64,000 nt of DNA. Origin: Chryseobacterium fluminis. GTDB taxonomy: Bacteria; Bacteroidota; Bacteroidia; Flavobacteriales; Weeksellaceae. Location of the stretch: NCBI RefSeq assembly GCF_026314945.1, contig NZ_CP111121.1, positions 124,001 to 188,000 of the forward strand, written 5' to 3'. The position numbers and the translations under genes are program-made. Each line of letters starts with the position of its first letter. The stretch's first letter is position 1. Shown in pieces: positions 48,621 to 50,248 of this stretch. A model generated the notes under the pieces. The model was not told the DNA's origin. It searched no databases and saw only the letters and a list, made by a program, of their open reading frames with translations.

Positions 48621-48763
48621 TATTTTATTTACGTCTAGATGGTTTTTTTAATCTTTTGATCAATAATTAAATAATTTAATGCGTTTTGCTTCTACCAATA
48701 AATCGATGGTTGGTGCCGATTGATTTAAAACAATCAAAAAATTAAATATTTAAATAAATTTTA
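48621..48763. other. Intergenic stretch after the RHS operon
   Basis: 143 bases, AT-rich, with no strong terminator recognised. It ends at the promoter box of the aromatic leader. Confidence 0.4.
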
Positions 48764-48771
48764 TATATTTG
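48764..48771 (+). promoter_or_regulatory. -7 box of the aromatic leader transcript
   Basis: TATATTTG fits TAnnTTTG. Transcription from about 48777 would give a ~385-base leader before the DAHP synthase gene. The -33 element is weak. Confidence 0.5.
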
Positions 48772-48780
48772 TGAGATATT

Positions 48781-48845
48781 TGTCAGGAAAATCATTTTCT
48801 GACAATTGCAAATCATCATTCGAAAAGCTTGAATAGACGATTCAA
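48781..48845 (+). ncRNA. Two hairpins at the 5' end of the leader
   Basis: TGTCAG / CTGACA closing an inner AAAAT/ATTTT stem at 48781-48804, and TTGAAT, AGACG, ATTCAA at 48829-48845. The second lies 10 bases before the leader ORF start and could influence its translation. Confidence 0.4.
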
Positions 48846-48854
48846 CGTATAAAC

Positions 48855-48998
48855 GTGGAACAATTTATCTCACATAAAACCGATTCAGGAAACCTTTTTG
48901 GTTTTGCAACTGCTAAGTATTTTAGCGGTTATTTTGGCTTTTCGTTTAGTTATCAAAGAAATTTTAAAAGTTATTACCGATTTTATTGGTACAGCTAG
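48855..48998 (+). CDS. Aromatic-rich leader peptide (47 codons)
   Basis: GTG start at 48855 and TAG stop at 48996-48998. The frame upstream has a TAG at 48834, and no ATG is available. Residues 15-46 contain 16 aromatics out of 32: the text runs LFGFATAKYFSGYFGFSFSY, then QRNFKSYYRFYWYS. In all, 9 Phe, 7 Tyr and 1 Trp among 47 residues. It sits in the leader of the enzyme that starts Phe/Tyr/Trp synthesis. Ribosome stalling at these codons under aromatic shortage would be the sensor. An RNA hairpin (AACTGCTAA / TTAGCGGTT, 48908-48930) lies within the ORF. I believe this is a real regulatory peptide; no homologue search was possible. Confidence 0.82.
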   Translation: MEQFISHKTDSGNLFGFATAKYFSGYFGFSFSYQRNFKSYYRFYWYS

Positions 48999-49022
48999 TC
49001 TAAATTTCTTTCTCAAAAAATA

Positions 49023-49086
49023 CAGGAATACATAAACCTTCTTTTATTATTTCCTGATTCCTTTAAAACTTTAACGGCATTTTTTT
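49023..49086 (+). promoter_or_regulatory. Candidate attenuator: alternative stems and T run
   Basis: CAGGAA 49023-49028 can pair with TTCCTG 49051-49056, or AGGAAT 49024-49029 with ATTCCT 49057-49062. A short imperfect stem, CCTTTAAA / TTTAACGG at 49060-49078, is followed by ATTTTTTT at 49079-49086 and looks like a weak terminator. The AGGAAT/ATTCCT pairing uses bases of that terminator stem, so the two are mutually exclusive. The T run is 80 bases past the leader stop, a fitting distance for attenuation. Confidence 0.5.
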
Positions 49087-49162
49087 GAAAGAATTGTAAA
49101 GTAAATTTTATAATGCAGGAATGATCTGTGTTTAATTTTAAAATAAAGAATAAATAAAAATT

Positions 49163-50248
49163 ATGGATATGAATTTAAAAGATTTAAAAAACGACTGGAT
49201 TAATGAGTTCTCCGAACCCATGATGATTGCCGGCCCCTGCAGTGCCGAAAGTGAGGCTCAGATGCTGGAAACGGCAAAGAGAATCAGAGAAACCCAGGCC
49301 AATGTTCCCATTTTCCGTGCCGGAATCTGGAAGCCCCGTACAAAACCCAACGGATTCGAAGGAGTAGGAGTTATCGGCCTCAACTGGCTGAAAAAAGTAA
49401 AAGAAGAATATGGTTTTAAAACTGCCACTGAGGTAGCAAATGCCCACCATGTGTTTGCCGCATTGGAAGCTGATGTAGACATTCTTTGGATCGGAGCCCG
49501 CTCTACTGTAAACCCTTTTACGGTGCAGGAAATTGCAATGGCATTAAGAGGAACCGAAAAGACGGTCCTTGTAAAAAACCCTGTTAACCCGGATTTAGCA
49601 TTATGGATTGGTGCTCTTGAAAGACTTCTGGGACAGGGTATTAAAAACTTGGGCGTTATCCACAGAGGATTTTCCACCTACCAGAAAACAAAATACAGAA
49701 ATAACCCGAACTGGCAGATTGCACTGGATTTTAAGAGTCAGTTTCCGGATATCCCGATGCTAATTGATCCTTCACACATTTGCGGAAACAGAACAGGGTT
49801 GGCAGATATCACCCAGGAAGCTTTAAACGTCGGATACCAGGGCGCCATTATCGAAACACACTCTAATCCTGATGAAGCCTGGAGTGATGCCGCACAGCAA
49901 ATTACACCGGAAGTGCTGGCTGAACTGATCGCTAACCTGAAAATCAGAAATACAGGTTTTGCAGGCTTCGAAGGCGATATGGGAAGACACCGGACATTGA
50001 TTTCTGATATCGATTTTCAGCTGATCGAGCTCCTGTCGCAAAGAATGAAGATTTCGGAAAAAATAGGAAAGCTTAAAAAAGAAAATGATATCGCAATCTT
50101 CCAGCCGGAACGTTGGAAAGAGATTACCGAATATGCCACTCAGAAAGCCAGGGAAACACAGATGTCTCAGGAATTTATTGAGAAAGTCTTCAAAGCTATT
50201 CATGAAGAATCTATTGAAGTGCAGAACAGTATTATGATTAACAGATAA
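49163..50248 (+). CDS. DAHP synthase fused to chorismate mutase
   Basis: 361 residues. Residues ~18-265 are a type I (KDO8P-synthase-like) DAHP synthase: MIAGPCSAES, RAGIWKPRTKPNGFEG, KTATEVANAHH, LWIGARSTVNPFTVQE, VLVKNPVNPD, IHRGFSTY, MLIDPSHICG. The C-terminal ~90 residues (MGRHRTLISDIDFQLIELLS; RMKISEKIGKLKKEN) are an AroQ-type chorismate mutase. The enzyme makes DAHP from phosphoenolpyruvate and erythrose 4-phosphate, and converts chorismate to prephenate. It is thus both entry and Phe/Tyr branch point. In such fusions the mutase domain usually also gives prephenate inhibition. Control by the leader peptide is inferred. Confidence 0.95.
   Translation: MDMNLKDLKNDWINEFSEPMMIAGPCSAESEAQMLETAKRIRETQANVPIFRAGIWKPRTKPNGFEGVGVIGLNWLKKVKEEYGFKTATEVANAHHVFAALEADVDILWIGARSTVNPFTVQEIAMALRGTEKTVLVKNPVNPDLALWIGALERLLGQGIKNLGVIHRGFSTYQKTKYRNNPNWQIALDFKSQFPDIPMLIDPSHICGNRTGLADITQEALNVGYQGAIIETHSNPDEAWSDAAQQITPEVLAELIANLKIRNTGFAGFEGDMGRHRTLISDIDFQLIELLSQRMKISEKIGKLKKENDIAIFQPERWKEITEYATQKARETQMSQEFIEKVFKAIHEESIEVQNSIMINR

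Follow-up and report, generated by a model that had tools for sequence, protein, structure and literature searches.

Chryseobacterium and two related genera share a conserved aromatic-codon leader upstream of the gene for DAHP synthase-chorismate mutase

The window analysed here, a stretch of 64,000 nucleotides of the Chryseobacterium fluminis genome (contig NZ_CP111121.1, positions 124,001 to 188,000 of the forward strand), carries a gene for a fused DAHP synthase-chorismate mutase that is preceded by a leader of about 390 bases, counted from a TAnnTTTG box at 48764. A first-pass annotation had read this leader as a probable attenuator, and the elements which it named are present in the sequence: the box itself (TATATTTG, 48764-48771), a GTG-started ORF of 47 codons (MEQFISHKTDSGNLFGFATAKYFSGYFGFSFSYQRNFKSYYRFYWYS, 48855-48998, + strand) with 9 Phe, 7 Tyr and 1 Trp, the motifs AGGAAT (49024-49029) and ATTCCT (49057-49062), a run of seven T (T7, 49080-49086) and, beginning at 49163, the gene, whose assignment is borne out by the Pfam domains DAHP_synth_1 and CM_2. 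The features, in window coordinates, are as follows.

48764-48771, + strand: TAnnTTTG -7 box, conserved in a 33-sequence alignment
48780-48805, + strand: hairpin of 11 pairs at the expected 5' end of the transcript, from a predicted fold and loosely conserved by eye
48855-48998, + strand: aromatic-rich leader ORF with GTG start, from conservation, open frame and peptide profile matches
48908-48945, + strand: hairpin A (48908-48930) with a U-rich stretch, terminator-like or pause-like by terminator scan and shuffles
48957-48967, + strand: segment 1, codons R-N-F-K here and R-N-F-R in most leaders, pairs with segment 2
48975-48991, + strand: hairpin TACCGAT...ATTGGTA over codons Y-R-F-Y-W-Y, 96.9% of cells paired in 32 sequences
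49000-49020, + strand: segment 2 and A-run (49015-49020), CTAAATTTCTTTCTCAAAAAA, just after the leader stop
49023-49056, + strand: hairpin P2 (CAGGAA...TTCCTG), enclosed by the 2:3 helix
49073-49095, + strand: AACGGCA, T7 and GAAAGAATT; segment 3 is 49080-49095 and T7 lies within the 2:3 helix
49093-49114, + strand: 3:4 hairpin, without a G-C pair in the window, from alignment and profile fold
49163-50248, + strand: type I DAHP synthase-chorismate mutase (CM_2) fusion, presumed regulated gene, PF00793 and PF01817

With the box at -12 to -5, the position given in passages of PMC9723704, transcription would start near 48776. The 11-pair hairpin at 48780-48805 is possibly a stability element. The RNA from 48776 to 49130 is predicted to fold with z = -4.56, and 0 of 100 shuffles were as stable. 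The fused enzyme is the only DAHP synthase recognised in the C. fluminis genome by searches with PF00793 and PF01474; a second PF00793 match was dismissed as KDO8P synthase, and PF01474 was absent. Among the top matches listed for the protein the named relatives are Chryseobacterium, with 93-95% identity.

The expectation that the aromatic codons are kept in relatives held when these were compared, as an aromatic-rich ORF lies at the same place in 79 of 80 Chryseobacterium-type loci. Our working set of 88 leaders comprises the window, 77 of these 80 loci and 10 leaders from further genomes; three of 91 were left out for lack of a recognisable canonical end. In two of the three (L049 and L054) the ORF is present with an altered end. 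In the third, L040 of Chryseobacterium gilvum, the aromatic codons, the segment 2 and 3 motifs and AACGGC-T6 are degraded together over the 430 bases upstream, although the promoter box is retained, a natural decay of the module. The set was chosen by the end motif, which itself demands some aromatic residues. Over the last 40 codons ahead of the stop, 88/88 leaders keep the leader frame open, with 42% aromatic residues, whereas the other two frames are open in 42/88 and 0/88 and are 9% and 21% aromatic; the ORF is therefore beyond chance. A start codon followed by Glu is found 35-56 codons before the stop in 78/88, and hardly any variation is seen in the C-terminal end Y-R-F-(Y)-Y-W-Y-C/S/Y-stop (85 of the 88 scored). 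The last 15 codons in the window hold Y, F, Y, Y, F, Y, W and Y, eight aromatic residues in all, and the leader would thus respond chiefly to tyrosine, beside it to phenylalanine and, through a single codon, to tryptophan. We also observe a Cys two residues after the W in 61/85 aromatic leaders and, more generally, that Cys often precedes the stop in the his (HHLC; L198 and L212 among the his and trp leaders), trp (LSCC) and aromatic (WYC) leaders of the genus.

The leader has a narrow distribution. The DAHP synthase gene was found in 146 of the 148 genomes of the family search, and in the 60 family genomes whose upstream regions were read the leader is present in 3/3 inside the genus and in 7/57 outside it, all seven belonging to genera g21 and g44. 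Two aromatic-rich ORFs without the leader motif (L158 and L166) were considered and not counted. A peptide profile (E <= 1.5e-4) and an RNA model (E <= 1.2e-6) each matched the same 26 of 120 family genomes, and at these thresholds no genome was matched by only one of the two; the 26 comprise 12 of the window's genus (g1), 12 of g21 and 2 of g44. The strong match lies upstream of the DAHP synthase-chorismate mutase gene in 25 of the 26, and the remaining one (G128) sits at a contig break. Other RNA-model matches in the 120 genomes, with E above 0.1, were examined as further copies of the module and taken as noise, as were other peptide-profile matches with E above 0.01, which include 21 additional genomes at E up to 0.1. 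Across the order, a sample of 148 genomes gave 18 matches at E <= 0.001, 13 in g1 and 5 in g21, and added no further genus. Judged by this comparison of sequences, the leader is real and conserved in Chryseobacterium and two related genera, and a ribosome-read leader upstream of the DAHP synthase-chorismate mutase gene is well supported.

What selection preserves in this ORF appears to lie at the level of codons or RNA. In the last 26 leader codons of 77 loci the ratio TAT:TAC is 435:102 and TTT:TTC is 369:88, as compared to 82:319 and 619:511 in the gene behind the leader (80 loci). TAT and TTT are the wobble-read codons of tRNA-Tyr and tRNA-Phe, but their excess in the leader is supportive only, as a weakly expressed ORF would drift likewise. 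The first-pass annotation had also predicted that the aromatic codons are kept while other positions drift. Between hairpin A and segment 1 this pattern is not seen: variability by codon position is 0.365, 0.351 and 0.338 (29 of 32 sequences), with no excess at the third position, and therefore selection is on codons or RNA and not plainly on residues. Four leaders, perhaps of one lineage (L005, L008, L009 and L024), lack one U of segment 1 but return to frame further downstream; their residues are altered (e.g. RNFRTYYRF to RNSEKKYRF) while the RNA complementarity of segments 1 and 2 is kept, with an unbroken 10-pair helix in the three that could be scored.

Segment 2 pairs either with segment 1 or, together with the A-run, with segment 3. 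Helix 1:2 joins the segment 1 codons with the bases right after the stop and is paired in 93.8% of cells in 32 sequences. Own partners score -6.12 as compared to -5.56 for swapped ones, with 0/2000 permutations as good, and the real codons pair better than the synonymous-shuffle mean in 32/32. The wobble base of the Phe codon and the base after the stop form C-G in 49 leaders, T-A in 16 and T-G in 2, and are broken as C-A in 7, with 14 of 88 leaders unscored; in the alignment one pair is C-G in 15, U-A in 10 and unpaired in 7 (n = 32). The 1:2 alignment shows no excess over shuffles either in pairs altered at both positions (1, against a shuffle mean of 1.6) or in additional pair types (10, against 11.6), and one pair supplies most of the covariation signal. 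Helix 2:3, in which segment 2 and the A-run pair with T7 and GAAAGAATT, reaches -9.0 to -12.9 kcal/mol in 32/32 leaders, on average -10.26 as compared to -6.05 for dinucleotide shuffles and -3.03 for other windows, and in 26/32 no other window of the leader pairs as well. Yet 1759 of 2000 partner swaps were as good, so that the pairing is conserved but, unlike that of 1:2, not covarying.

Two local hairpins accompany these helices. The one at 48975-48991 is more stable than the synonymous-shuffle mean in 29/32 leaders, and a hairpin directly after the A-run is predicted in 88/88 (P2 in the window; mean MFE -7.5 as compared to -3.5 for shuffles, 32 leaders). The 3:4 hairpin is paired in 94.1% of cells (32 sequences) with a profile-fold pair probability of about 0.97; its covariation is modest, since 10/500 shuffles reach the score, and the own-partner test is weak (218/2000 swaps). 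CTATTG or a close variant follows the 3:4 stem at an almost constant distance of 8-10 nt in 67/85 leaders (3 of 88 unscored) and is lacking in 18/85; the window itself does not have it. Two other explanations of this stretch were discarded. A second promoter at 49085-49114, with 11/12 matches to the E. coli type, has a spacing that, by eye, varies with the hairpin loop in relatives, and its box is not of the TAnnTTTG type; a DNA palindrome for a regulator is at odds with what is seen by eye at 3:4, namely a loop whose length changes from genus to genus between retained arms. The idea of a genome-wide element was set aside for the motif AACGGC-T6, which occurs in 23 copies in the C. fluminis genome, as compared to 14 of a reversed control.

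The locus thus displays much of what characterises an attenuator, namely a short ORF with clustered end-product codons, its translation predicted from the sequence, a position in front of a gene from the same pathway, and two mutually exclusive helices, 1:2 and 2:3, that share segment 2, with segment 1 overlapping the control codons. How a ribosome could act on these helices was modelled with a mask that reaches 12 nt past the first base of the codon in the A site, all values being averages over 32 leaders. With no ribosome, 1:2 forms with a probability of 0.79, the pairing of A-run and T-run with 0.49 and its extension with 0.29. A ribosome stalled at codons -13 to -2 raises the T7/A-run pairing to 0.81-0.82 and the extension to 0.72-0.74, 1:2 being 0 by construction, and a ribosome on the stop codon gives 0.46 and 0.24. 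Stalling at -18 or before, where there are more aromatic codons, restores 1:2, which simple polarity with 2:3 as the ON state leaves unexplained. These upstream codons are best read as a delay line that would slow the ribosome, and they are the weak point of the model. The 3:4 hairpin was also considered as a terminator and exclusive partner of 2:3 and was rejected: both form together in the model and no U-run stands behind it. Since 3:4 forms in every state (0.74-0.89), it is not a classical terminator partner.

We propose that a ribosome stalled about 14 to 1 codons before the stop would hide segment 1, upon which 2:3 would form and close T7, while a ribosome on the stop codon, which hides segment 2, or no ribosome, which leaves 1:2 formed, would give much less 2:3. 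Hairpin A within the ORF may serve as a gate at which RNA polymerase waits for the ribosome, just as the first hairpin of the trp leader makes RNA polymerase wait, and the 3:4 hairpin, which in most relatives is followed by the CTATTG-like sequence, may be a second pause; the CTATTG-like sequence could be the pause site, though the window lacks such a sequence. When the aromatic supply is sufficient, the ribosome would leave at the stop codon, the downstream RNA would stay more open and elongation would be stopped at the paused polymerase, most likely by Rho; under starvation the folded 2:3 domain would shield the RNA and transcription would continue. That the leader senses aromatic supply is very probable from the sequence, and that the choice between 1:2 and 2:3 is the switch is likely. 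For 2:3 as the ON state we see a moderate preponderance. A stop at the pause, probably with Rho, is the output we favour because no intrinsic terminator follows the ORF, but we put it forward tentatively. On balance, we lean towards the overall explanation that a ribosome-read leader sets expression of the sole DAHP synthase-chorismate mutase according to the available Tyr, Phe and Trp.

But could the leader not be a classical attenuator, with intrinsic termination at T7 that is relieved by ribosome stalling, as had been suggested by the first-pass annotation? T7 and a weak CC...GG hairpin are present, and the his, trp and pheA leaders of the group do use a hairpin with a U-run. The best hairpin at T7, however, has -1.1 kcal/mol with a shuffle mean of -0.5; the best T-run hairpin lies between 0 and -4.7 kcal/mol in 31/32 leaders (L020 unscored), within the shuffle range, as compared to -10.4 to -20.5 kcal/mol by the same measure in 22/22 his, trp and pheA leaders; and the rule that is used below for hairpin A finds a terminator-like site between the leader stop and the gene in 0/88 leaders. 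Moreover, T7 is accounted for by its pairing with the A-run at 49015-49020 after the stop codon. AGGAAT and ATTCCT, which had been cast as a general antiterminator, can pair in the window leader too, but a second copy able to pair over at least 5 bases exists in 54/88 leaders and in only 12/32 non-redundant ones. We thus regard a classical attenuator as improbable. Of the attenuator reading, the conserved leader of aromatic codons and the alternative helices tied to the position of the ribosome stand, and the T7 terminator does not. The only terminator-like hairpin of the leader is hairpin A, inside the ORF, and the stopping point might be this hairpin with its U-rich tail, acting as an intrinsic terminator which a close-following or Phe-stalled ribosome disrupts. 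It is flagged in the window by the terminator scan and has -9.4 kcal/mol there, a Phe codon stands just before its 5' arm, its region is more stable than the synonymous-shuffle mean in 31/32 leaders, and each of its six inner pairs is found in 80 to 86 of the 86 unique leaders, compensatory pair types among them. It is terminator-like in 75/88 leaders as compared to 219/1760 synonymous-codon shuffles, but in 23/32 non-redundant leaders only. Against this explanation, which we consider unlikely, stand also the conserved segments after the stop, which it leaves unexplained, and its direction, as starvation would hold most ribosomes upstream and termination would then be favoured.

Two further alternatives dispense with termination or with charged tRNA as the input. 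The leader may control translation or stability of the mRNA, with the 2:3 domain or 3:4 altering nuclease access or ribosome loading. The structured fold of 48776-49130 and the lack of a terminator-like site after the leader stop would suit such a role; the start codon, however, is 48 nt downstream of the 3:4 hairpin, in sequence rich in A, and profile folds extending to the start codon contain no conserved helix after 3:4. We rate this about as unlikely as termination at hairpin A. TnaC is a sequence-specific arrest peptide, and by analogy the nascent aromatic peptide might stall the ribosome on sensing a free aromatic amino acid. The very conserved C-terminus would fit, and the final residues could still matter, but several conserved non-aromatic residues coincide with paired RNA segments, and the four leaders with compensated frameshifts changed residues upstream of Y-R-F-Y while RNA pairing was kept. 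Of the alternatives weighed here we hold arrest by the peptide to be the least plausible.

The ribosome-read switch that we favour has clear relatives among known leaders. In the E. coli trp and pheA attenuators the control codons overlap segment 1, and the position of the ribosome sets 1:2 or 2:3. The aromatic leader shares this overlap and this choice, and likewise an early hairpin that could synchronise polymerase and ribosome. It differs in that it has no 3:4 terminator, that 2:3 and 3:4 are largely compatible, that its codons specify three amino acids and that its T-run is part of 2:3. We regard it as a variant of ribosome-mediated attenuation that probably works like a classical attenuator, but do not file it as one, because the defining terminator is lacking. 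For the output, Rho-dependent leaders offer a model by analogy: in Salmonella mgtA the RNA conformation opens or hides a Rho site and pausing matters, as passages of PMC10085680 state, and in E. coli topAI stalling on an upstream ORF is the input, according to parts of PMC12121999; in the aromatic leader the input would be the charging of aromatic tRNAs. The Bacteroid-trp RNA (RF01692), which is named in PMC2864571, likewise belongs to Bacteroidota and is tied by its name to tryptophan genes, but it has no match in the window at its gathering score, nor at E <= 10 within 48700-49200. No Rfam family matches the window at gathering score, and a threshold of E <= 10 brings up only five families, of eukaryotes or Vibrio, all scoring far under their cut-offs.

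Leader regulation in flavobacteria as such is already known: clues for leader-peptide attenuation upstream of amino acid operons, with conserved 5' elements at pheA and hisG, are described for Flavobacterium psychrophilum in passages of PMC9723704. The first-pass annotation knew of no described leader for the fused enzyme, and this is uncontradicted among open-licence papers, none of those among the matches listed describing such a leader in Chryseobacterium. The his and trp leaders of the genus (e.g. MKPNFLTVHHYHHHLC; ...WWWLSNSSSGLKLLSCC), which lie upstream of the biosynthetic genes in 9/9 genus genomes each, are likewise short ORFs with clustered end-product codons; unlike the aromatic leader, they have strong terminators (-10.4 to -17.9 kcal/mol). 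The pheA leaders in other families of the order (L239, L243, L244 and L249) likewise encode a Phe/Tyr-rich peptide, e.g. NTYTNFYFYFFFKD, but end in a strong hairpin with a U-run (-10.8 to -20.5 kcal/mol), which the aromatic leader does not have. Such a leader is found at 4/6 pheA loci outside the genus, and each of the four genomes has the DAHP synthase-chorismate mutase gene a short way downstream in the same orientation. At pheA in the window's genus no leader of this kind was found (22/24 loci read; two could not be oriented); there the DAHP synthase gene is not linked to pheA and itself carries the aromatic leader. We suggest that the aromatic leader may have replaced the classical pheA leader. 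As a separate observation, the C. fluminis genome holds a second prephenate dehydratase-like stretch (G000:C2:3278821-3279354) with one in-frame TAA, besides the one that has none. The most complete form of our proposal is a race of ribosome and polymerase over codons for Phe, Tyr and Trp, with no terminator after the ORF, hairpin A as the gate, 1:2/2:3 as the switch at the finish line, the T-run as a pairing arm, a Rho- or pause-dependent stop, and replacement of the classical pheA leader upon the unlinking of DAHP synthase from pheA; taken with all these parts it is speculative, and we think it rather less likely to hold in full than its core.

Should the proposal be right, entry into aromatic amino acid synthesis would be controlled at this leader in Chryseobacterium and two related genera, with all three aromatic products sensed at once through the ribosome. 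The leader would be an amino acid leader without the textbook hairpin-plus-U terminator, unlike the his and trp leaders of the same genomes, and its natural variants, the frame-compensated leaders and the one degraded module, make the model directly testable.
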